This document shows, one piece after another, positions 8,942 through 56,370 of a DNA stretch of 56,370 nt. The DNA comes from Gammaproteobacteria bacterium. Lineage in GTDB: Bacteria > Pseudomonadota > Gammaproteobacteria > JACQPQ01. A model generated the notes under the pieces. That model ran no database searches. It was not told the origin of the DNA and saw nothing but the letters and a program-made list of their open reading frames with translations. The position numbers and the translations under genes are program-made. The stretch is taken from assembly GCA_016207405.1 (NCBI GenBank), contig JACQPQ010000034.1:1-56370 (forward strand). The letters are read 5' to 3'. Within the stretch, counting starts at the first letter, position 1. The number at the start of each line of letters is the position of its first letter.

Positions 8942-8974
8942 GGATTGTCTCACATTATTTTACTCATTATAGAC

Positions 8975-9020
8975 CTGGAATTGGTGGACCGCTCGCTCAA
9001 GCTCGCTTTGTCCACCCTAC
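8975..9020. repeat. GTAGGGTGGAC palindromic repeat, copy B (inverted)
   Basis: On the minus strand this reads GTAGGGTGGACAAAGCGAGC .. GAGCGGTCCACCAATTCCAG, nearly identical to the copy at 396-440. It is joined within six bases to a second, unrelated repeat at 9026-9077, so the space before sdhB is a repeat composite. Confidence 0.85.
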
Positions 9021-9025
9021 AAAAA

Positions 9026-9077
9026 CTTTTAGCGAGCAGCAGGCAGCGGAAAATACATAGTGAACCACCCATCAGTG
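9026..9077. repeat. Half-copy of the inverted-repeat element at 31737-31858
   Basis: About 52 bases (core AGCGAGCAGCAGGCAGCGGA, then AAATACATAG and ACCACCCATCAGTG) match the reverse complement of 31737-31790 with only a few differences. Only one terminal repeat and its inner flank are present, so this looks like a solo end or decayed copy. Confidence 0.8.
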
Positions 9078-9105
9078 AGAGATTACCTCGGGCAGAAAGA
9101 AGCAC

Positions 9106-20140: not shown

Positions 20141-21554
20141 TACCTTGCAAAGAATGGCGCAAGGCTTTAACAATCTCTACAGTTACAAAATGCCCAATCT
20201 GTTCTGGACTGCCTTCAAAATGAACGACTCGATTGTTTTCCGTACGCCCCTTGAGCCTCACTGGATCTTTTTTGGAAGGCCCTTCCACCAAAACGGATTG
20301 GCAAGTCCCCACCATACTTTCATTCATACGACGTTCAAAGGTTTCGAGTCGCTTTTGAAGAATAGCCAATCTCTGCTTTTTCTTTAAAAGAGGAACCGGG
20401 TGTGGTAACCGTTCTGCAGGCGTCCCTCGCCGTGGGCTGTACATAAAACTAAAAGACTGGTCAAACGCAATATCTTCTACAAGGGAGAGAGTCGCCTTAA
20501 AATCTTCCTCTGTCTCGCCCGGAAAACCTACAATAAAATCGGAAGAAACACTCATGCCCGGTCGAATTTCTCTAAGCGTTTTAATTTTAGAACAGTATTC
20601 GGCCCGAGTATAATTACGCTTCATTAAACTTAAAATCCGGTCTGATCCACTCTGAACCGGAAGGTGAATATGACTAGCTAACTTTGGAACCTCTTGATAA
20701 GCCAACGCTAAACGGTTACTGAAATGAGCGGGATGAGAAGTCGTATAACGAATGCGTTCGATACCCTCAATTTCAGCGACGACTGAAATTAGTTCTGCCA
20801 AATCCACTTCCCGCCCATCCACTGTCTTCCCCCGATAAGCGTTCACGTTCTGACCCAATAAAGTTACTTCACGAACCCCTTGCTTTCTCAGATGCGCAAT
20901 TTCAATGATGAGATCATCAAAAGGACGACTGACTTCAATCCCTCGCGTATAAGGCACCACACAAAAGGAACAGTATTGATTACATCCTTCTATGATAGTG
21001 ACAAAAGCAGTGGGGCCTTCGGCACGCGGCATCGGCAAGGAGTCAAACTTTTCAATTTCTGGAAAAGATACATCCACTGCAGCTTTTTTTTCTAGGCGTA
21101 TCTGGTTAAGAAGTTCCGGCAAACGATGCACCGTTTGCGGACCAAAAATAATGTCCACATAAGGCGCTCGTTTTAAAATCGCTTCTGCCTCTTGACTCGC
21201 AACACATCCCCCCACTCCAATAATTAGATGTTTTTTTTGGTCTTTGAGTTTTTTAAAACGCCCTAACTCTGAAAATACCTTTTCTTGTGCCTTTTCTCGA
21301 ACGGAACAGGTATTCAAAAGTAGAATGTCTGCTTGGGTTGGATCGTGGGTAATTTCAACCCCCTGAGATGCCACCAATAATTCCCCTAAACGCTTACTAT
21401 CGTAAACGTTCATCTGGCACCCCTGGGTTTCAATGTAGAGTTTTGCTGAGTGACCACCAGAATCTTTAAGAGACTCTTTGGGAAGAGTTTTCTCCCCCTG
21501 TGCGAGCGTGTCCCGAGCGACGTAGAATTTTTCAGGTAAAAATGCAGGATGCAT
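20127..21554 (-). CDS. miaB: tRNA-2-methylthio-N6-dimethylallyladenosine synthase
   Basis: The 475-residue radical-SAM methylthiotransferase adds the 2-methylthio group to i6A37 of tRNAs reading UNN codons. It has an N-terminal UPF0004 domain ([18 protein letters not shown]), the radical-SAM motif [15 protein letters not shown] and a C-terminal TRAM-like region. The family normally starts within a few residues of KLYIETQG; here about 38 residues precede it, with no in-frame start codon closer. That extension is encoded by the left arm (21470-21536) of a long inverted repeat. ATG 21554 (or GTG 21563) is therefore the only available start, and neither has a clear Shine-Dalgarno. Confidence 0.92.
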
Positions 21555-21662
21555 TTTTAGCACACTGGAGATAGGATATCGACTGTGCGCGGCCTGAAAA
21601 ATTCTAGGAGCGCAGGGACACTCGTGCTCGCACCGGGGGAGAAAACCTGCCCAAAGAGTCTC
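21470..21662. repeat. Long imperfect inverted repeat covering the miaB 5' end
   Basis: The left arm (21470-21536, read on the minus strand) and right arm (21593-21662, plus strand) share CCTGAAAAATTCTA, GGGACAC, GCTCGCAC, GGGGGAGAAAAC and CCCAAAGAGTCTC in order, about 70 bp each, around a 56-bp spacer. The left arm lies inside the miaB frame and encodes its non-family N-terminal extension. The right arm lies in the miaB-guaB spacer. Confidence 0.8.
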
Positions 21663-31724: not shown

Positions 31725-31736
31725 TTTTTATAAAGT

Positions 31737-31858
31737 CCCACTGATGGGTGATTTGCTGTGTATTTTCCGCTGCCTGCTGCTCGCTAAAAAGTCCCTTGCG
31801 CTCCTAGAATTTTTCCGGCCGCTCGCAAAGGCATCAGAAAATACATAGCAAACCACCC
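31737..31858. mobile_element. Inverted-repeat element (MITE-like) between kdsC and lptC
   Basis: Terminal repeats at 31746-31767 (GGGTGATTTGCTGTGTATTT..) and 31837-31858 (..AATACATAGCAAACCACCC) match at 20 of 22 positions when one is reversed. The 113-bp body has no coding capacity. Homology to the half-copy at 9026-9077 extends a few bases further, to 31737 (ACTGATGGGT). It interrupts the otherwise conserved kdsC-lptC junction. Confidence 0.65.
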
Positions 31859-31889
31859 TCCCCACCATTTTAGTGAGGCCCTAGCATTT

Positions 31890-35719: not shown

Positions 35720-36523
35720 ATGGCAATAATCAGAACCTATCACGAGTTACTAGAATACGTTCAGGCTCAGGGTCGTAAAACTTTTTCGCTGCAAGAAGTC
35801 ATTCAGATAAAAGAAGGTAACAGAAATGCAGCGAGCTTAATGCTACAAGACATGGTCTCACATAAATTTGTTAAACCCATTGCAAAGGGGTTTTATGCAA
35901 TTTACTCGTCGTCAGAGAAGCAAACTGAATCTATTTCCTGTCATGACTATATTGACCAATTGATGCAGCATAAGAAGGTCCAATACTACGTAGGACTCCT
36001 TTCGGCAGCCAGTGTTTATGGGGCTACCCATCATAGGCCAATGATTTATCAAGTGGTTACAAATCAGCAAGTACGCATCCCAAAAAAACTGTTGCCAGAT
36101 ATCCATTTTTTTACTAAAAAGCACTTTCCAACGCATTGCGTGCTAAAACGCAAGGGCCAGTATGGGTATATGAATTTTTCAACCCCTGCGTTAACTTTGT
36201 ATGATGCTATTAAGTTTGAAAAGAGCTGCGGTACCCTCTACAACGTTATTCTCATATTTAAGGAAATATTGCCTGAACTCAAGCTCCTAGACGTTAGGGA
36301 ACTGGTAAAAAACTCTATTGAAGTGTCTGTTATCCAGAAATTTGGATATCTTTTAGAAAAGTTGGGGCAAGTTAACTTAGCTAAATATTTCAAACCGATG
36401 GCCGCTGCTGCAAAAAGCTATGTTCCCCTTTCTAAATATGATTCCAACAAAAGGTTTGAAAAAAACGGGGTCTGGAAAGTTATTGATAATATTGATTGGG
36501 GGGAAGTAGAAGATGTTGCCTAG
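35720..36523 (+). CDS. AbiEi-family antitoxin (type IV toxin-antitoxin)
   Basis: The 267-residue protein has an N-terminal winged helix (FSLQEVIQIKEGNRNAASLML .. GFYAIY, about 20-65), where the recognition helix would sit, and the AbiEi C-terminal domain. The latter includes YYVGLLSAASVYGATHHRP and VTNQQVRIPKK. In type IV systems the antitoxin neutralises the toxin without binding it directly and represses its own promoter. The 3' end overlaps the toxin gene by 11 bases (36513-36523), so both are made together. It lies between housekeeping genes (ald and, after the next two genes, ftsK). Confidence 0.85.
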   Translation: MAIIRTYHELLEYVQAQGRKTFSLQEVIQIKEGNRNAASLMLQDMVSHKFVKPIAKGFYAIYSSSEKQTESISCHDYIDQLMQHKKVQYYVGLLSAASVYGATHHRPMIYQVVTNQQVRIPKKLLPDIHFFTKKHFPTHCVLKRKGQYGYMNFSTPALTLYDAIKFEKSCGTLYNVILIFKEILPELKLLDVRELVKNSIEVSVIQKFGYLLEKLGQVNLAKYFKPMAAAAKSYVPLSKYDSNKRFEKNGVWKVIDNIDWGEVEDVA

Positions 36524-37301
36524 CGCCTACATTGAACATTGGCGACGTTATGCCCCATGGCGTTCTAATGAATTTGTTGAACAAGATCTGATTTTATCTA
36601 GGATTTTGACTGAACTTTACTCCAGTCAGCTTATTGTGGATTCTTTAGCATTTAGAGGGGGAACAGCACTTCATAAAATATTTTTAGACAAACCTGCTCG
36701 CTATTCTGAGGATCTCGATTTTGTTCATATCAAAGGAGGACGAATAGGAAGTGTAATTTCAGAAATTAGAAGAATCTTGGATCCCATCTTTTCAAGCAAA
36801 CCTCGATACAAGGCGGGTAAAGACCGTGCAACACTGCTGTACCGTTATCAAGCAGAATTGCCGCCTCATTCCTCTATGAAGATTAAGATTGAAATCAACA
36901 CAACAGAATCTTTTTTTGTTGAGCCGCTACAAGTTAAAACTTTAATCTACGAGTCACCCTGGTTTTCTGGAAAAGCTGCCATTACTACGTATTCAACCGA
37001 AGAACTATTGGCGACGAAATTACGCGCCCTTTATCAGAGAAGAAAGGGGAGGGACTTGTTTGATTTATTTATGAGCAAAAAGCTCGAACCAGATTATGAA
37101 AAGATCGTTCAAATTTTTAATAAATATCTCAAAGCCGAAAACAAGCACATTCCATCGGCTCTTTTTGAACAAAATCTTGTAGAAAAATTAAAGAAACCAC
37201 ATTTTGGATTAGATTTCCAACCACTGATCAATCCTGTCATTCAATACGATCAACAAGAAGCTTTTGAATATGTGCTGGGAAAATTTCTTTCTCGCTTTTG
37301 A
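36513..37301 (+). CDS. AbiEii-family nucleotidyltransferase toxin
   Basis: The 262-residue protein has the DNA polymerase beta-type nucleotidyltransferase signature of the AbiEii/AbiGii group: AFRGGTALHK near 48-57 and RYSEDLDFVHIK near 65-76, with acidic metal ligands in EDLDF, then STEELLATKLRALYQRRKGRDLFDLF near 164-189. Characterised relatives use GTP or other nucleotides to modify tRNA 3' ends, and give abortive infection against phages. All motifs appear intact. It overlaps the antitoxin gene and is followed by an exported protein of unknown role 82 bases on. Confidence 0.85.
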   Translation: MLPSAYIEHWRRYAPWRSNEFVEQDLILSRILTELYSSQLIVDSLAFRGGTALHKIFLDKPARYSEDLDFVHIKGGRIGSVISEIRRILDPIFSSKPRYKAGKDRATLLYRYQAELPPHSSMKIKIEINTTESFFVEPLQVKTLIYESPWFSGKAAITTYSTEELLATKLRALYQRRKGRDLFDLFMSKKLEPDYEKIVQIFNKYLKAENKHIPSALFEQNLVEKLKKPHFGLDFQPLINPVIQYDQQEAFEYVLGKFLSRF

Positions 37302-47827: not shown

Positions 47828-47857
47828 TTGACAATATGTAAAAGTGTGTTCTAGTAT
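47828..47857 (+). promoter_or_regulatory. Promoter of the decaheme cytochrome operon, with overlapping dyad
   Basis: TTGACA (47828-47833) and TAGTAT (47852-47857) are spaced 18 bases and predict a start near 47864. AGTGT .. ACACT arms (about 47843 and 47862) flank the -10, so a repressor or activator dimer could cover it. This separates the cluster from the tRNA-Ser upstream. Confidence 0.5.
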
Positions 47858-47917: not shown

Positions 47918-48868
47918 ATTCACACAAAAGCACACCGCTTGGTAAACCTTCAAAGGCAAGGATTAATTTTAATTGGCTTATTATGTGTTGCGAATGTTTC
48001 TCTACTCGCTTCGGATAACAGCCCCCCTCCCACAACAAACATGGCACAATGCACTAAGTGTCATGATGAAAGCACCGCCCCTGTTTTACCCTTATTACAA
48101 TCCAAACATGCGGTTATAGCAGACAACAAAACCCCTTTTGCAGACCGCTCATGCCAAACGTGCCATGGCATGAGCGAAGAACACATGAAAGGTTCTGAAG
48201 CGGGAGGACCGCGCCCTTCTCCCAACATTCGATTTGATTCCAAGTCCAACACCTCCATTTCAGAGCAGAATGGAACTTGTTTAAGTTGTCATCGTTCTGG
48301 ATCCAGGATGAAATGGAAGGGTAGCCAGCACGAAATGAAAGGCGTTAGATGTGTCAGTTGCCATACGATACACACGGAGAACGCCAAGGTTTTAGATAAA
48401 AAAAACCAAGCAGAAGTCTGTTTTATCTGTCATAAGACACAGAAGGCAGAGAGTTATAAGTTTTCCTCTCATCCCATTCAAGAAGGAAAGGTCGTTTGTT
48501 CCTCTTGCCATAATCCCCATGGTTCTGTAGGACCAAAACTTTTGAATAAAGCGACGGTTAACGAAACCTGTTACACCTGCCATGCGGAAAAGCGAGGGCC
48601 ATTTTTATGGGAACACCCGCCGGTGCGGGAAGACTGCTTAAATTGTCACACACCCCATGGGTCCATCCATAAACCGCTTCTTAAATCAAGAGGCCCCTGG
48701 TTATGCCAACAATGTCATTTAGCACAATTTCATCCGAGTGCGGTCTATAGTGGTACAGGGGTTCCGCCTGTCGGAGCCGCCGATCAACTATTAGGCAAAA
48801 ATTGTTTGAATTGTCACTTCGAGCCACATGGATCTAACCATCCTTCAGGTGCAAGGAAAACGAGGTAG
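47918..48868 (+). CDS. Decaheme c-type cytochrome, MtrA/DmsE family
   Basis: The product has exactly ten CxxCH heme sites (CTKCH, CQTCH, CLSCH, CVSCH, CFICH, CSSCH, CYTCH, CLNCH, CQQCH, CLNCH) after a signal peptide (QGLILIGLLCVANVSLLA), and ends CLNCHFEPHGSNHPSG, typical of the MtrA/DmsE/PioA group. Such proteins sit inside an MtrB-type barrel and carry electrons across the outer membrane. The start is unusual. The first conventional codon is TTG 47939 with no Shine-Dalgarno, but an in-frame ATT at 47918 lies seven bases behind AAGGAG (47905-47910) and adds a basic n-region; I annotate ATT with caution. The MtrB-like gene follows after 35 bases. No outer-surface cytochrome or Mtr lipoprotein is seen nearby. 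Confidence 0.92.
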   Translation: MHTKAHRLVNLQRQGLILIGLLCVANVSLLASDNSPPPTTNMAQCTKCHDESTAPVLPLLQSKHAVIADNKTPFADRSCQTCHGMSEEHMKGSEAGGPRPSPNIRFDSKSNTSISEQNGTCLSCHRSGSRMKWKGSQHEMKGVRCVSCHTIHTENAKVLDKKNQAEVCFICHKTQKAESYKFSSHPIQEGKVVCSSCHNPHGSVGPKLLNKATVNETCYTCHAEKRGPFLWEHPPVREDCLNCHTPHGSIHKPLLKSRGPWLCQQCHLAQFHPSAVYSGTGVPPVGAADQLLGKNCLNCHFEPHGSNHPSGARKTR

Positions 48869-48903
48869 AAAGGGATAAGAGGTAAGGGATAGGGGGTAAG
48901 GGA
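48869..48903. repeat. Degenerate TAAGGGA-type tract between the cytochrome and MtrB genes
   Basis: AAAGGGATAAGAGGTAAGGG then ATAGGGGGTAAGGGA fill the whole spacer, a degenerate 7- to 8-bp period. The last AAGGGA serves as the ribosome-binding purines for the MtrB-like ATG. Confidence 0.6.
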
Positions 48904-51201
48904 ATGAAAATTCATAACAAAATATTTATAGCCATTTTATATTTAACCGCTTTTCCTCTTTTGGCTGAAGATGATCCCTTTTCTTTGGGCACAGGTGACG
49001 GAAGTTTTTCTCGAGAAGCGACCCCTCCCCTACCTTCCCATCGTCCTACGAGCGAACTTGAAATAGGACTTGGGTCTATCAGCCAAGATTCTTTTAAATT
49101 TGGAGAGTATACGGGGCAGGAAGAAAAAGGCCCTTATGTTATAGGTAATCTAAACATTCACCGTCTGGGTACTGTTGATAGCACAACGCTTGACAACGAC
49201 GCGGCACTCTACTGGATTTTAAAAGGCAGAGCGTTGGGGTTGAATTCGCGAGAGTTAGGATTAGAGACTGGAGTACAAGGCGATTATAAGCTATGGGTTG
49301 GCTATGACCAATTGCCAAAATTTCAAACAGATACCGCTAAGACTCCCTTTAGAGGAGTGGGAGGAGATACGCTTACTTTACCCGCAGGGTGGGTGGCTGC
49401 AACAACGACAGCCGGGATGACGGCATTAAATAGTAGTCTGCAAGATTTAAAAATAAGCCACGAACGTAAGAATTATAAAATCGGATTTTCTAAATTATTT
49501 GGCTCTCATTGGGGTTTTAAAACACAGTATCAGCATGAAACAAAAGAAGGAAAGACAATTACAGGCGCTGTTATTGGTAACTCAGGGGCAAATCCGAGGT
49601 CCGTTTTAATTCCGCAGCCTATTGATTATGTCACTCACCAATTTGAAGCTGTATTAGAGTTTACAGGGCAAAAGGGGCAATTTGAACTGGGGTATTATGG
49701 TTCTCTGTTTAATGACAAGGAAAATTCGTTGACGTGGGAAAATCCTTATTCCACCATTACGACCCCCCCACCAGGATGGAGTGCAGCCGCTGGGTTTCCA
49801 ACAGGACAAGGAAGAATCGGTTTACCGCCGGATAATCAGTTTCATCAGATTTTAGCTTCTGGGGGATATGCATTTACGAAGAATACGCGCCTCACGATGT
49901 ATGGAGCGGTTGGAAGGATGACTCAGGATGAAACCTTCCTCCCCTATACCGTCAATTCTGGGTTAACAGCAGCAACGCCTTTGCCCCGTACTTCTTTAGA
50001 TGGAAGGATTGACACGACTCTTTTCGATCTCCATCTACTGTCACATCCTTTAGATCCCCTCAATCTTATCGCTCACTATCGGTATGATGACCGGGATAAT
50101 CAAACCCCCCAGGCCCAGTACATTTATATAGGAGGGGATTCTCAAAACCAGGGAACCGTAACAACTACCAATGACAAAGTGAGAACCAATCTTCCCTATG
50201 GGTTTAAACAACAGAAGTTAAAGGGGGAAGCAGATTATGAGATATGGGCTCGAACTCACTTACAGGGTAGGTATGAATACGAAGAAACGAAACGAACCTT
50301 TTCAGAAGTTAAGAAGACAAAAGAACACACCTATAAAGTGGAATTAAGAAAAAATGCTTCAGAGCTTGTGCGAGGAGGGGTTCGTTTTCTTCAGGGGTTC
50401 CGGAGAGGTTCCACTTATCAAGGGAATCTTCCTTATTTACTGAGTTACTCTAATTCATTTACCGGTGCACAAGCTGCAAATGTGCGATTTGATAATCATC
50501 CCCTCATGAGGAAGTTTAATCTGGGGAATAGAGATAGAACTCAGTTTGGCGCTTTTGTGATGGCAGAGCCGCATGAAATGGCAACTGTGCAATTAGCAGT
50601 CGACTGGAATGACAATGATTACCCAAGATCCACACTAGGCTTAAGAGGAAGTGAAGGGCAGATCTATACGTTCGATGCTGCCTTGGCACCCAAAGATGGT
50701 TTGACTGCTCATGCTTTTTATACCTATGAGCATTTAAAATCAGACCAAAAGGGTCGCTATTTTCTTGGTGGTGCACCAAAAGCTATTCAGTCAGCTGATT
50801 CTACCCGCGACTGGACGGCTAAACAGCGGGACGGAGTAGATACGATAGGTTTAGGTTTTGAGGCAACCCCAAACTTAAGCAAATGGAAGGGTGGGGCAGA
50901 ATATACGTATGCTCGCTCTCGTGGGAAGGTACATGTCAGAACAGGACCTTCTTTAGTACCTGCAGCAATAAATTTACCGCTTTTAACAACAGAGCTTCAT
51001 AGACTGGATGTTTTTTTAAAGTACAAAATAAAAGAATCGCTTTCAACCAAGTTCAATATTCTCTACGAAAAATTTAATTCGCAAGACTGGGCGCTGGATA
51101 ACACAACCGCCACCACATTAGCAGGTGTCATTTTAACGGGAGAAAAGAGCCCGGATTACTCAGTAACTGTTTTCGGGGTATCGCTATTGTATGCTTTTTG
51201 A
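48904..51201 (+). CDS. MtrB/PioB family decaheme-associated outer-membrane protein
   Basis: The 765-residue protein has a signal peptide (about 1-21, FIAILYLTAFPLLA|ED), a Gly/Pro-rich N-terminal stretch and then many amphipathic strands (LEIGLGSISQDSFKFGEYTG, repeated YDDRDNQTP-like turns) to a C-terminal aromatic (LLYAF), a large beta-barrel. The sequence pattern and the decaheme cytochrome upstream are characteristic of MtrB/PioB, which sheathes MtrA/PioA. I see no cysteine at all, so the CxxC near the N-terminus of Shewanella MtrB is absent, as in PioB-like members. The direction of electron flow (metal or mineral reduction against Fe(II) oxidation) cannot be told. Confidence 0.9.
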   Translation: MKIHNKIFIAILYLTAFPLLAEDDPFSLGTGDGSFSREATPPLPSHRPTSELEIGLGSISQDSFKFGEYTGQEEKGPYVIGNLNIHRLGTVDSTTLDNDAALYWILKGRALGLNSRELGLETGVQGDYKLWVGYDQLPKFQTDTAKTPFRGVGGDTLTLPAGWVAATTTAGMTALNSSLQDLKISHERKNYKIGFSKLFGSHWGFKTQYQHETKEGKTITGAVIGNSGANPRSVLIPQPIDYVTHQFEAVLEFTGQKGQFELGYYGSLFNDKENSLTWENPYSTITTPPPGWSAAAGFPTGQGRIGLPPDNQFHQILASGGYAFTKNTRLTMYGAVGRMTQDETFLPYTVNSGLTAATPLPRTSLDGRIDTTLFDLHLLSHPLDPLNLIAHYRYDDRDNQTPQAQYIYIGGDSQNQGTVTTTNDKVRTNLPYGFKQQKLKGEADYEIWARTHLQGRYEYEETKRTFSEVKKTKEHTYKVELRKNASELVRGGVRFLQGFRRGSTYQGNLPYLLSYSNSFTGAQAANVRFDNHPLMRKFNLGNRDRTQFGAFVMAEPHEMATVQLAVDWNDNDYPRSTLGLRGSEGQIYTFDAALAPKDGLTAHAFYTYEHLKSDQKGRYFLGGAPKAIQSADSTRDWTAKQRDGVDTIGLGFEATPNLSKWKGGAEYTYARSRGKVHVRTGPSLVPAAINLPLLTTELHRLDVFLKYKIKESLSTKFNILYEKFNSQDWALDNTTATTLAGVILTGEKSPDYSVTVFGVSLLYAF

Positions 51202-51258
51202 AGGTATGGGGTGACGGGATATCGGGATATTACGGACACATTGAATAGAGGTCACACC

Positions 51259-51288
51259 CATCCAGTATTAAGATCTCAATGCTGGATG
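51259..51288. repeat. Imperfect palindrome centred on AGATCT
   Basis: CATCCAG .. CTGGATG flank a nearly self-complementary core (TATTAAGATCTCAATG) in the spacer between the MtrB-like and porin genes. It is followed by GACAGCTTTCGCTGGTATGACAG, which resembles dispersed intergenic repeats of other genomes. It may attenuate transcription between the two genes. Confidence 0.45.
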
Positions 51289-51365
51289 ACAGCTTTCGCT
51301 GGTATGACAGTAGAGAATTTTTTAATTGTGCTAAATAGATACTAAAGCACAAAGGGAGATTAATC

Positions 51366-52574
51366 ATGCAAAAAACAAGGATAGTGTGCATAGCCGTAAG
51401 CCTTTTTATTTTTGTATTCAGTTCTTCGAAACTTGTCTGGGCCGATACTGAACTCGATGCGCTCAAAAAGGAATTTAAAATCATGCAGGAAAAAATGGAA
51501 CCTTTACAAACAAGGATTGAACAACTAGAAAAACGAGATGAAAGTAAAACCGCTCAGACAGAGAGCCTCCCCCCAAAAAGCGTTCTTTCTAACTATACTT
51601 TAGGAGAAGGATTTAAGCCTTTTGGAGAATCCGGCGTAACGCTGGGTGGATTTGGTACTGTTTTAGGTGACAAGCAACAAAATTCTCACTCTTCTTTTCG
51701 CATAAAAGCATTTCACCTGTATGTAGATGTTCCTTTAGGAGAAAAGTTTAAGTCTTTGGCTGAGATGGAATTTGAAGATGGAGGTAATGTAAATGCAAGT
51801 GACGGGACAGAGGGAAAGATTTTATTATCGAGATTCTGGGTTAATTGGAAGATACATGACAAGGTAAATTTGAACTTCGGTAAAGAACTCAATTCTGCAA
51901 ATGGCCCGTATAATCTTTTGTATATTCACCCTTTACTTCCCACTGCAACCAAACCACTTAAAGTAAATAAGGCACGATTACAACAGCAGATCACAGGGGC
52001 ACGCGTGTGGGGCAACCTTTTTGCTAAAGATTGGGAAGTGGCCTATTGGTTAGGAGCTTCCAATGGCAGTGGGCCTACGCCCGATTTTACAGACACAAAT
52101 AATAATAAGATGCTGTATGGGAGACTACAAGTTGTTCCACCTTTGGGTGATAAAGGAGAGCTAAAAGTAGGCATCGTAGGGACGAATGGCAAAGACGGTA
52201 ATTTGCATAATGCGAGAGAAAACGGTACAGGAGTGGATCTGACCTATTATTATAAGAAGTTTGGGCTATGGGGGGAATGGTATAAAAGTTGGGTTAATCC
52301 TAGTACACAAGCTGATTTTACTTCGAAGACTTTTTTCCTTATGGGGTTGTACAAGCTCATGCCGAAATGGACTGCAATTGTACGCTATGAAGAAAATGAT
52401 ACCAAATCTACAGCTAAGACATCTAACTTTGTAGATGGAAATCGGTGGGTATGGGCGGTAAATTATCGGCCCATACCGCCTATAAGGTTTGGATTAGAAT
52501 ATGTAAAACATGATGAAGAGCAGAATAAAATAAGAAACAACAGTTTGATAGGGAGTGTAAGTATGATGTTTTAA
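51366..52574 (+). CDS. Porin with N-terminal coiled coil (OprP/OprO-like)
   Basis: The 402-residue protein has a signal peptide (about 1-26, ending KLVWA|DT), a short heptad-rich coiled coil (DALKKEFKIMQEKMEPLQTR and on, about 28-60) and a barrel (from about 75: TLGGFGTVLGDKQQ, MEFEDGGNV, LLSRFWVNWKIHDKVNLNFGK) ending in VSMMF with terminal Phe. This is the layout of phosphate-selective porin O/P-type and related porins, whose coiled coil trimerises in the periplasm. GGGAGA precedes the ATG. The substrate is not evident; the PstS-like neighbour may hint at an anion. Confidence 0.82.
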   Translation: MQKTRIVCIAVSLFIFVFSSSKLVWADTELDALKKEFKIMQEKMEPLQTRIEQLEKRDESKTAQTESLPPKSVLSNYTLGEGFKPFGESGVTLGGFGTVLGDKQQNSHSSFRIKAFHLYVDVPLGEKFKSLAEMEFEDGGNVNASDGTEGKILLSRFWVNWKIHDKVNLNFGKELNSANGPYNLLYIHPLLPTATKPLKVNKARLQQQITGARVWGNLFAKDWEVAYWLGASNGSGPTPDFTDTNNNKMLYGRLQVVPPLGDKGELKVGIVGTNGKDGNLHNARENGTGVDLTYYYKKFGLWGEWYKSWVNPSTQADFTSKTFFLMGLYKLMPKWTAIVRYEENDTKSTAKTSNFVDGNRWVWAVNYRPIPPIRFGLEYVKHDEEQNKIRNNSLIGSVSMMF

Positions 52575-52609
52575 TAGGGTGATCTCGGTTATGGATAACG
52601 AGAATGTGT

Positions 52610-53074
52610 ATGAAAAAATATGTTTTCCTGTTTATTATTTTCCTTGCAAATTTTGCCTTACCTGTTTTCGCTGAGCCTATCGCTATTATCGTTAACAAAA
52701 ATAACCCGCAAAACGAAATTTCACTTAAAGAACTCGATAACATTTATAGGGCAAAGGCAACTACATGGAATAACGGAAGCCAAATTGTCCCTATAAACCA
52801 AGAACTTACTGCCACCAAAGGAATAAGAGAGGCTTTTTCCAGAATCATCCACAACGCGTCATTAGATGACATACAAGCATTTTGGCTAGGACAGCGCTAT
52901 AAAGGAATAAAACCACCCCTCACGCAACAATCAAGCCTTGCCGTAAAGCGAATGGTTGCCAACGTAGAAGAAGCGGTCGGATATATTTATGCAAATGAAG
53001 TAGACGATTCTGTGAAGGTTTTAAAGGTGGATGGTCTAAGTCCCAACGATCCTGGTTATAAAATTAATGATTAG
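52610..53074 (+). CDS. Small periplasmic PstS-like substrate-binding protein
   Basis: The 154-residue protein (156 if the ATG at 52604 is used) has a signal peptide ([22 protein letters not shown]) and one lobe of a phosphate-binding-protein-like fold: [40 protein letters not shown], and [20 protein letters not shown]. The first two motifs are shared with PstS and with the PBP-like family found beside other transport and signalling genes. At this length it is half of a true PstS. It probably feeds information to the following chemoreceptor or helps the porin; no ABC transporter is present. Confidence 0.75.
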
Positions 53075-53082
53075 ATAAAACA

Positions 53083-55149
53083 ATGGAACTATTCAACAAA
53101 GGGATACGTGAAAGATTGATGGCAGTATTTGTAGTTTTGTCATTGGTGCTTATCGTTATCGTGGGAAGTATAAGTTATTACCACGGGCGCAAAATCATTA
53201 TGGAATCGATTAGCGCTAAACTTCCTACCTTTGCTTCTCAGATCATACAGAAGATAGACACAATGTTTTATTTTGTTTCGAAAGATACTCAGGCCTGGGC
53301 GGGCTTGGACATTATGCAAGATGTTTTAACAAAAGATGTGGATGCAAGGATAACTTCACTCCTGAGTAAATTAAAGGAAGGTTATGGAGTTTATAAAAAC
53401 ATCTATTGTGTGGATGAGAAGGGGAACATTATTGCGAGTTCTAATCCCAAGTCTATAGGAACCCATGTGGGAGGTGAAGACTGGGTTAAGGAAGCTCTGG
53501 GAGGAAAAACGGTTATCAAGGATGTATATCTTTCTCCTCTTGATAATGCAATGGTGGTTAACTTGGCCGTACCGGTTTATGCGCTACAGGGTACTAATAA
53601 AATTATTGGGGTTCTATCTTCGCATTTCGACTGGCAGCAGATTGTAACGACTATCAACACGGCTATGATGGATAATAAACCGCAAAGCAGATCCTCTCAT
53701 TTGGTTATGATCAACAAAGAAGGGTTAGCATTGAGTGATGCGTCTTTTGATAAAGAAAGAAGAGAGACGGGATTATTAAAAGATAATCTCATTCATCAAG
53801 GTTTAAAGTCAGCAGATCTTGCTCGTGAAGGAAAGAGTGGTTGGATGGTAGAAAAGAATGAATATGGAATTGAAAGTCTTATTGGTTTTGCCTCTTCAAA
53901 AGGATTGGGGGATTTTAAAGGATTAGAATGGTCAGTATTAGCGATGACTTCTCTGCAAGAAGCCTATACACCTATCAGAAATCTGCGTGATGTAATGGCG
54001 CTGACAGGCCTTTTGTTACTTATTATGGTTATCTTTATCACTTATTTTATGTCCCTCAGCCTAGTCAAACCACTGAATTTGCTTCTGATGGCAGCGCATA
54101 ACCTTGCTTCTCGCGCGGGCGATCTGAGGCAAAAAATCGCCATATCCACAAGTGATGAAATAGGAAAACTCGCAGGGGCATTTAACGCAATGATCGATTC
54201 ATTGCATGACATGGTCTATCAAGTACGTCACACGGCTGACAAAGTTATTAATTCTGCTCAGGAGTTATCTGCCTCTAATGAGGAAATGAACTCTTCCATT
54301 CAACAGGTTTCTACTGCCATTGCGCAAGTTGCCCAGGGAGCATCAAATCAGGCTAACAAACTTGAAGAAACATTTGAAGTGGTAGAAAAAGCATCGGTTG
54401 CTTTAAAACAGATGGTAGATAATGCACAAATGGCAAGTGCTTCGGGAAACGAGACCAATGACCATGCCGAAAAGGGACGAGTCTTTGCTGCCGAATCAGT
54501 TGCAAAAATCGAATTCCTCGCAAAAACGGTAATGGACACTGTAAAAGTTATCCAGGGTTTAGGAGAGAAGTCAGAGCAAATTAGTGAAATTACTGGAACG
54601 ATTACCTCTATTGCAGACCAAACCAACTTGCTGGCTTTAAACGCAGCGATTGAAGCGGCACGCGCTGGGGAAGCTGGAAGAGGCTTTGCGGTGGTCGCTG
54701 AAGAAGTACGTAAACTTGCTGAAGGATCAGCAATCGCTGTGAGAAAAATTGATGCCCTTATCAAGTCCATACAAACTGAAACCAATCGAGCTATAAGCTC
54801 AATAGACGTGAGTTCCAAAGAAGCTCAGGAAGGAAGGAATCAAGTTACTAAGATAGCAGAAGGATTAGTAGAAATTAGCAAATCCGCTGGGCAATCCGCG
54901 GATTTAGCAAAGCAAATATGGCACGCCGGCACCCAACAGGTTGAGGAAACAAAACATATAAAGGAGTCCATCCAACAAATCGGCGTGATTGCCAAAGAAT
55001 TTGCTGCCACCTCCCAAGAAGTATCTGCAAGTACCGAAGAACAGACCGCGGCTATGCAAGAAATGGCCGCCTCAGCGCAAGAGCTGGCGAATACATCCAT
55101 AGACTTAAAAACGCTGTTTGATAAATTTAAGTTAAGAGGGGAGAAATAA
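53083..55149 (+). CDS. Methyl-accepting chemotaxis protein with periplasmic Cache-type sensor
   Basis: The 688-residue receptor has TM1 (about 14-34), a periplasmic region of about 265 residues that fits a double Cache domain ([40 protein letters not shown]), TM2 (about 306-328), a HAMP domain ([20 protein letters not shown]) and a long signalling helix bundle. The hairpin tip contains [40 protein letters not shown], the CheA/CheW-binding motif. Cache sensors usually detect small metabolites, so the ligand could be a carboxylate, amino acid or oxidant. No C-terminal NWETF-like pentapeptide is present. It follows the PstS-like gene by eight bases. Confidence 0.93.
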
Positions 55150-55181
55150 TATCAAAAAATAGCGTTTATTCTGTATCAAAA

Positions 55182-55811
55182 ATGAATGACAAAACTAAAA
55201 ATTCCTTTACTTCGTTCGATTTATTGCAAAAAATAGGGATGCTTGGCTCTAAAAAAGCGGCTGCTGCGTTAGCCGAGTTTCTGAATTGTGAAGTAGAAAT
55301 ACCTCTATCAGAAGCCAATATCATTCCACTCAAATCATTAAACACCATTTTTGGAAATCTTGAGAACTTATATTTTGTTATGGATGGTGAAGTTACAGGA
55401 GAGATAGAAGGAAGAACTTGTTTTTTTCTCTCTCCTCAAGAGGCACAAAACTTAGGTGCCATTCTTTTAAAAAAGAATACGGAAATAAGCCGTGATGATC
55501 CCCTTTTCCAATCTGCATTAAATGAAGTCATGAACATTATATCTGGAGCTTATATCAATGTATTAGCGGATAAAATCCATGCAAAAATAATGCGCGGTCC
55601 ACCCTCGTTAGCCATAGATATGGTGGGCGCTATTTTAGATTTTTTATACGCCTATTTTAATTCACATACGAGCAACGTATTTCTCATAAAAACAAAGTTG
55701 AAAGTAAAAAATTCGCCTTATGAAGGATTGTTTATTTTCCTCCCTAAAAAGGAATCCATAGAAAAAGTATTTGGGAGCTATTCAGCCTATTTCCAAAATC
55801 AGTCGAATTGA
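55182..55811 (+). CDS. CheC-like chemotaxis phosphatase with one degenerate site
   Basis: The 209-residue protein has the CheC/CheX/FliY fold: FDLLQKIGMLGSKKAAAALA (12-31) and FQSALNEVMNIISGAYINVL (109-128). CheC-type proteins have two D/SxxxExxN phosphatase sites. The second is intact (Ser111, Glu115, Asn118), but the first is degenerate (Asp13, Lys17 in place of Glu, Met20 in place of Asn). It should dephosphorylate CheY-P at one site. CheC is widespread in bacteria and archaea with alternative chemotaxis systems but rare in gammaproteobacteria, which use CheZ, so this module may be of a different lineage. Confidence 0.8.
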   Translation: MNDKTKNSFTSFDLLQKIGMLGSKKAAAALAEFLNCEVEIPLSEANIIPLKSLNTIFGNLENLYFVMDGEVTGEIEGRTCFFLSPQEAQNLGAILLKKNTEISRDDPLFQSALNEVMNIISGAYINVLADKIHAKIMRGPPSLAIDMVGAILDFLYAYFNSHTSNVFLIKTKLKVKNSPYEGLFIFLPKKESIEKVFGSYSAYFQNQSN

Positions 55812-55817
55812 TTTGTT

Positions 55818-56315
55818 ATGCAAGAATCCATTGAAACCACTCAAGAATTGCAACTCGTGGTCTTTCAGATCGGAAAAGAAGAGTTTGGAGTTAATATTAA
55901 TCAGGTAAGGGAAATCATTAAACTGACTCCGATTACTCCTATTCCACGAGTATCTCCTTATATCGAAGGCGTTATCAATTTACGCGGACAAATTTTAGCA
56001 ATTGTCGATCTTGCTAAAAAGTTAGACTTAAAAAAAACGATTTATTCAGAAAAAACGAAAATTATTATCATAGAACTTGAGGAAACCAAGGTTGGAATTA
56101 TTGTTAATGAAGTCACTGAGGTATTACGCTTTTCTACAAAAGATATTGAACTGCCATCTGGTTTAATTATGAACAAAGAGATCCAACCCTATATCAAAGG
56201 CGTGGGGAAATTAGGGGATCGCCTATTAGTCATTATTGATCTGGCCGCTATCTTTTCTTCAACAGAGATGCAGGAAATAAACAAAAATATAAATGAGAAG
56301 AAAAATGAGGAATAA
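55818..56315 (+). CDS. cheW: Chemotaxis coupling protein CheW
   Basis: The 165-residue adapter has the two SH3-like barrels of CheW: ELQLVVFQIGKEEFGVNINQ, then VREIIKLTPITPIPRVSPYIEGVINLRG with the conserved Arg in NLRG that binds receptor tips, and IIVNEVTEVLRF and PYIKGVGKLGDRLLVIIDL. It links the upstream receptor to CheA, which is not in the window. A Lys/Asn/Glu-rich tail ends the protein. The gap to the CheC-like gene is six bases. Confidence 0.93.
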   Translation: MQESIETTQELQLVVFQIGKEEFGVNINQVREIIKLTPITPIPRVSPYIEGVINLRGQILAIVDLAKKLDLKKTIYSEKTKIIIIELEETKVGIIVNEVTEVLRFSTKDIELPSGLIMNKEIQPYIKGVGKLGDRLLVIIDLAAIFSSTEMQEINKNINEKKNEE

Positions 56316-56319
56316 ATAA

Positions 56320-56370
56320 ATGGATGAAAAAAGAAAATTTAACCGTTTGCATGTCAATGGTGAAGAGAGA
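56320..56370 (+). CDS. Start of a probable PilZ-domain (c-di-GMP-binding) protein, cut by window edge
   Basis: Only 17 codons are present: MDEKRKFNRLHVNGEER. The KRKFNRLHV pattern fits the RxxxR c-di-GMP-binding arginines at the start of PilZ domains. ATG 56320 lies four bases after the cheW stop, with AGGA behind it, so it belongs to the chemotaxis operon. With so little sequence the call is tentative. Confidence 0.45.
   Translation, partial: MDEKRKFNRLHVNGEER

Follow-up and report, generated by a model that had tools for sequence, protein, structure and literature searches.

Can a bacterial electron conduit and a chemotaxis module form a single genomic unit, by which a cell steers toward or away from an extracellular electron donor or acceptor? 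The question is raised by eight genes at the end of a 56,370-nucleotide stretch of gammaproteobacterial DNA (hereafter the window), which is the entire contig C14 of a genome of 1.45 Mb (73 contigs, 94.3% complete, estimated contamination 0%). Searches for genomes at the family and order level returned only this genome itself. No genomic unit that couples electron conduits to steering is known to us, and nothing direct on a conduit-chemotaxis gene cluster was found in the literature searched. Such a unit would matter, and the comparison described below argues against one here.

All eight features lie on the plus strand, and the contig ends at 56370, inside the sensing module. In gene order from mtrA to the PilZ-like gene, the gaps are 35, 164, 29, 8, 32, 6, and 4 bases, the widest being the 164 bases before the porin, as the original prediction had it. 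The features are as follows.

47828..47857, plus strand: best sigma-70-like promoter match upstream of mtrA, TTGACA-18-TAGTAT (10/12 consensus bases)
47918..48868, plus strand: periplasmic decaheme c-type cytochrome of the DmsE/MtrA/MtoA type, mtrA (profile, 6r2q MtrA chain, CXXCH count)
48904..51201, plus strand: outer-membrane beta-barrel of the MtrB/PioB/MtoB type without cysteine, mtrB (profiles, 6r2q MtrB chain)
51202..51365, plus strand: mtrB-porin gap of 164 bases, with an inverted repeat at about 51259-51288 with an 11-bp stem (fold z = -2.7)
51366..52574, plus strand: outer-membrane porin, weak Porin_O_P match, possible N-terminal coiled coil (profile)
52604..53074, plus strand: half-size PstS-like periplasmic protein (half-PstS), one lobe, PstS SRE-x-GSGT loop lost (profiles)
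53083..55149, plus strand: dCache_1-HAMP chemoreceptor (MCP) with hairpin tip motif (profiles)
55182..55811, plus strand: CheC-like phosphatase of CheY-P that retains one active site (profile, alignment)
55818..56315, plus strand: CheW coupling protein, the sole one found in the genome (profile)
56320..56370, plus strand: probable PilZ-domain protein, first 17 codons, cut by the contig end (RxxxR; too short for a profile match)

The conduit and its sister copy

The first two genes were predicted to encode a decaheme MtrA/DmsE-type cytochrome and a cysteine-free MtrB/PioB-type barrel, and both assignments hold. The cytochrome matches the DmsE family profile TIGR03508 with 289.5 bits (cut-off 192.2) and carries exactly 10 CXXCH motifs; the barrel scores 504.8 bits against PF11854 and 462 bits against TIGR03509 (cut-off 240) and contains zero cysteines. 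In the Shewanella complex PDB 6r2q, the MtrA chain matches the cytochrome with 264 bits and the MtrB chain matches the barrel with 218.5 bits, and for both proteins the structure and profile matches are nearly full length. Translation of the cytochrome could begin at an in-frame ATT at 47918, a rare codon but a plausible start, located 7 bases after AAGGAG, or at TTG 47939, the first conventional start of the gene. The upstream promoter match is directly preceded by a tRNA-Ser, and total promoter matches in this region are no higher than in shuffled sequences.

By sequence, the pair qualifies as a predicted porin-cytochrome conduit of the MtrAB/MtoAB/PioAB kind, in which the decaheme wire would thread the MtrB barrel and carry electrons between the periplasm and the outside. 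With MtoAB of Sideroxydans lithotrophicus ES-1 and MtrAB of Shewanella it shares a DmsE/MtrA-type decaheme cytochrome followed directly by an MtrB/PioB barrel; unlike them, the window cluster holds no MtrC/OmcA, MtoD, or CymA gene, and a NapC/NirT partner is found at the sister locus on contig C70. The absence of a surface cytochrome, already remarked in the original prediction, extends to that locus, since inspection of both clusters revealed no MtrC/OmcA surface decaheme cytochrome gene beside either conduit. The closest relatives (L007, L008, L010, and L011) likewise show the pair without an obvious adjoining multiheme surface cytochrome. This is reminiscent of the Mto arrangement, which is known from iron oxidisers (PMC10654088, PMC13390432).

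The sister conduit (L006:8386-13373) begins with an MtrA-type cytochrome that has 11 CXXCH motifs, one above the usual ten; MtrB, a tetraheme protein of the NapC/NirT type, and an EB_dh protein come next, and the locus has no chemotaxis genes. Its MtrB is 58% identical to that of the window. In a tree of 48 MtrB proteins the two copies pair at 100/100, with a betaproteobacterial MAG adjacent and the window copy on the shorter branch, and because of this pairing the two conduits appear, among the sequences sampled, to be duplicates that arose in this lineage. DNA similarity between the copies ends at the mtrB stop codon; shared ancestry therefore ends there and the sensing genes begin. The conduit adds a lineage without sampled relatives, having a small genome and two conduits, to the predicted performers of extracellular electron transfer.

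The sensing genes and their place beside the conduit

Downstream of mtrB, the original prediction listed a coiled-coil porin, a half-size PstS-like periplasmic protein, a Cache chemoreceptor, a one-site CheC, and CheW, and the profile searches bear these names out with differing strength. The porin match is weak (Porin_O_P, 24.6 bits, barely above the cut-off), whereas CheW scores 139.8 bits and the chemoreceptor matches dCache_1, HAMP, and MCPsignal. The half-PstS protein (156 aa) matches PBP_like_2, and its TIGR02136 match is confined to positions 114-241 of the 295 in the profile and stays below the family cut-off, so that the two lobes of a PstS are not present. CheC aligns with 1xkr over residues 11-198 and, being full-length with at least one E-x2-N site, belongs to its family; in the first site E and N are replaced by K and M, and the second site keeps its E..N. 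The PilZ-like fragment comprises the 17 residues MDEKRKFNRLHVNGEER, with the RxxxR motif present as RKFNR, after which the contig ends, so that the D/NxSxxG motif of a PilZ domain would lie beyond it; this fits a PilZ start and proves nothing.

One MCP and one CheW occur in the genome, two of the components by which a chemotaxis pathway is recognised. The original prediction saw no CheA, and a search for H-kinase_dim shows that this holds for the entire genome at 94.3% completeness; neither CheR nor FliG was detected in the genome, and none of the response-regulator matches elsewhere in it lies beside other che genes. A CheA kinase may be located past the contig end, as would probably be the case for the remaining genes of the operon (cheA, cheY). 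A continuation of the contig was sought in the genome through PilZ and receiver domains, and none was found; the one PilZ gene found, on C34, was rejected as the continuation, since it has its own start and lies near type IV pilus genes. The type IV pilus genes of the genome include a PilT-like ATPase, PilW, and PilM; should the missing part of the pathway lie past the contig end, type IV pili or c-di-GMP would be likelier targets than a flagellum. As a separate observation, contig C10 of the same bin (L033, 841-3251) carries GvpK and GvpL/F genes adjoining a response regulator and a PAS kinase, which would reflect either buoyancy or a misbinned contig.

To compare gene neighbourhoods, 52 other MtrB loci were gathered, 25 of them in named genomes and 27 sampled evenly across the class, with at least one locus in both sets. 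Relatives of CheC, CheW, the half-PstS protein, or the porin were found at 0/52 of these loci, several of which are short contigs where a negative is weak. MCPs were found at only one, Noviherbaspirillum L009, where two of other types are located at a distance of about 3-5 kb, the downstream one separated from mtrB by cytochrome genes; by our estimate, one such locus is about chance level where genomes carry dozens of MCPs. To the extent that these loci permit a test, conduits without che genes are the outcome that the original prediction had itself named as refuting the link. The conduit and the sensing module had both been named correctly in the original prediction, and it is the proposed link between them that finds no support.

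Three readings of the adjacency were weighed. The comparison suggests that the conduit and the sensing operon are neighbours by accident, and we consider them probably to be two functionally separate units side by side. The first, mtrA-mtrB, would be one of two copies of the lineage's Mto/Mtr-type conduit, and the second an operon of the porin, half-PstS, dCache chemoreceptor, CheC, CheW, and PilZ-like genes. They are read as two because the mtrB-porin gap is the widest and bears an inverted repeat, and the gaps within the second unit are only 4-32 bases. The operon boundary would then fall in this gap, possibly between two transcripts; no standard terminator was found in its 164 bases, so that read-through from mtrAB into the second unit is possible.

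An alternative is that conduit and chemoreceptor are co-regulated as one unit and that an extracellular electron donor or acceptor guides the cell's movement. The two are adjacent on the same strand, the receptor is the only one in the genome, and there is a precedent in Shewanella, whose gathering around minerals needs the Cache MCP SO_2240 together with mtrBC/omcA (PMC5789149), although the genes there carry distant locus numbers. In this congregation and energy taxis, as in the present genome, a Cache-domain MCP and an outer-membrane conduit occur in one organism; in Shewanella, however, their genes are unlinked and the cells swim by flagella, whereas FliG was not detected here. Neither the 52 other conduit loci nor the sister conduit shows the linkage, CheA, CheR, and the flagellar FliG were not found in the genome, and the porin/half-PstS/sensor pattern is met again at loci that have no conduit, all of which makes this alternative unlikely. 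Redox steering may nevertheless occur in this organism, as Shewanella depends on both a conduit and a Cache receptor although the two are not neighbours, but nothing here shows it.

The composition of the sensing genes bears on the remaining reading, in which everything from the porin onward derives from another organism and was joined at the repeat-bearing gap during assembly or binning. CheC is rare in the class, occurring in 8/369 genomes including that of the window, with the other seven below 27% identity, and on plasmids it was seen in one Bacillus record only. The GC3 of cheC and cheW lies 2.2-2.5 sd below the local mean, and that of mtrA is not low, a contrast that also speaks for two separate units. 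This rarity and the drop in GC and GC3 at the gap would fit such an artefact, as would a contig end inside the sensing module, an inverted repeat in the gap, and the lack of CheA and CheR in the bin. However, codon usage of the second unit is in the normal range, with no module gene scoring more than 1.4 sd from the genes of the genome, a point that also counts against the two-unit reading. The contamination estimate is 0, and no further long copy of the inverted repeat was seen in the sequence of this genome that was examined, so that an artefact appears quite improbable. The rarity of CheC together with the GC3 drop in cheC and cheW also hints at import of these two genes from another lineage, which stays a hint because codon usage does not stand out.

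A recurring porin, half-PstS, and sensor set

Relatives of the half-PstS protein occur in 71/369 genomes of the class Gammaproteobacteria. Forty of the best-scoring loci were surveyed with their flanks, picked by similarity to the window's protein and not by neighbourhood. A gene was counted as barrel-like if it lay directly upstream on the same strand, encoded 300-480 aa, and ended in an aromatic residue, the C-terminal mark of outer-membrane barrels. Such a gene precedes the half-PstS gene at 27/40 loci, compared with 8/343 control ORFs (p about 1e-24), the controls being drawn from the same loci and hence not fully independent. Among 31 aligned upstream proteins, Pfam matches were to Porin_4 (11), OMP_b-brl (5), and Porin_O_P (3), with possible overlap. 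An MCP, GGDEF protein, or histidine kinase is encoded within three genes of half-PstS at 21/40 loci, and barrel and sensor occur together at 17/40, against 2/343 controls. Counted by the tip motif, MCPs are found near half-PstS at 10/40 loci and near conduits at 1/52 (p about 0.0009); a tblastn count of 20/40 was dropped, as kinases and GGDEF proteins that match in HAMP and coiled-coil regions inflate it.

Given this enrichment, porin, half-PstS, and sensor are a recurring set that needs no electron conduit. Its recurrence without an adjacent conduit speaks against the conduit-chemotaxis link and, at the same time, supports the earlier suggestion that the PstS-like protein is a sensor accessory. 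No direct description of such a system was found in the literature searched, and the pattern, statistically strong in the loci examined, is a more durable lead than the conduit. At four loci (L078, L080, L088, and L113) the upstream barrel and half-PstS are followed directly by a GGDEF protein instead of an MCP, in what looks like the same module with a different output.

The co-encoding of these proteins recalls YfiBNR-type envelope signalling, in which an outer-membrane protein, a small periplasmic protein, and an inner-membrane HAMP signalling protein are likewise encoded together. YfiR and YfiB belong to other families, and the output there is GGDEF, in place of the chemoreceptor here; some of the half-PstS loci do have GGDEF.

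The ligand loop and the role of half-PstS

In two-lobed PstS the phosphate loop SRE-x-GSGT reads SREDGSGTR; the window protein, aligned to it, lacks this loop, its Arg being replaced, and where the Arg would stand nearly all relatives carry D/N-Q, N-L, or the like. AlphaFold modelling of half-PstS alone gave an unusable result (pLDDT 40). What the second unit senses is a matter compatible with the two-unit explanation. In Pseudomonas aeruginosa, PstS serves the chemoreceptor CtpL in phosphate chemotaxis (PMC4926252), and, as there, a PstS-type periplasmic protein is paired with a chemoreceptor in the window, implying indirect sensing. Unlike in CtpL-PstS, however, the window protein is half-size and without the PstS ligand loop, the sensor domain is dCache, and the gene string holds a porin, CheC, and CheW. 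Half-PstS might accordingly be read as a phosphate shuttle for the chemoreceptor of a cell that seeks phosphate, for which its PstS homology, the spacing of 8 bases to the MCP gene, and this precedent could be cited; with one lobe only, and with the loop Arg replaced in the window protein and nearly all relatives, such a shuttle is improbable.

Because a single lobe without the loop Arg is unlikely to bind phosphate in the manner of PstS, a docking or relay role is preferred, on the model of the indirect sensing by CtpL-PstS. Within the second of the two units, a small solute would enter through the porin, and the periplasmic half-PstS lobe would modulate or dock on the receptor. As output, we infer that the receptor would signal via CheW and the missing CheA, that type IV pilus movement or c-di-GMP would be the target, and that CheC would terminate the signal. 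More tentatively, the stand-alone half-PstS without a phosphate loop might be a periplasmic relay from a partner porin to an inner-membrane sensor with exchangeable output (MCP, GGDEF, or histidine kinase), forming a widespread three-compartment module that here sits beside an electron conduit and could report on it.

Elsewhere in the window, two overlapping genes at 35720-37301 resemble, by eye, a toxin-antitoxin pair of the AbiEi/AbiEii type (regulator plus nucleotidyltransferase). Dispersed repeats of 50-150 bases, mostly intergenic and several of them self-complementary, are scattered over the genome, with copies at 388-441, 8972-9086, 21470-21662, and 31736-31870 of the window, at 15388-15612 of L006, and at 1-143 of L035.
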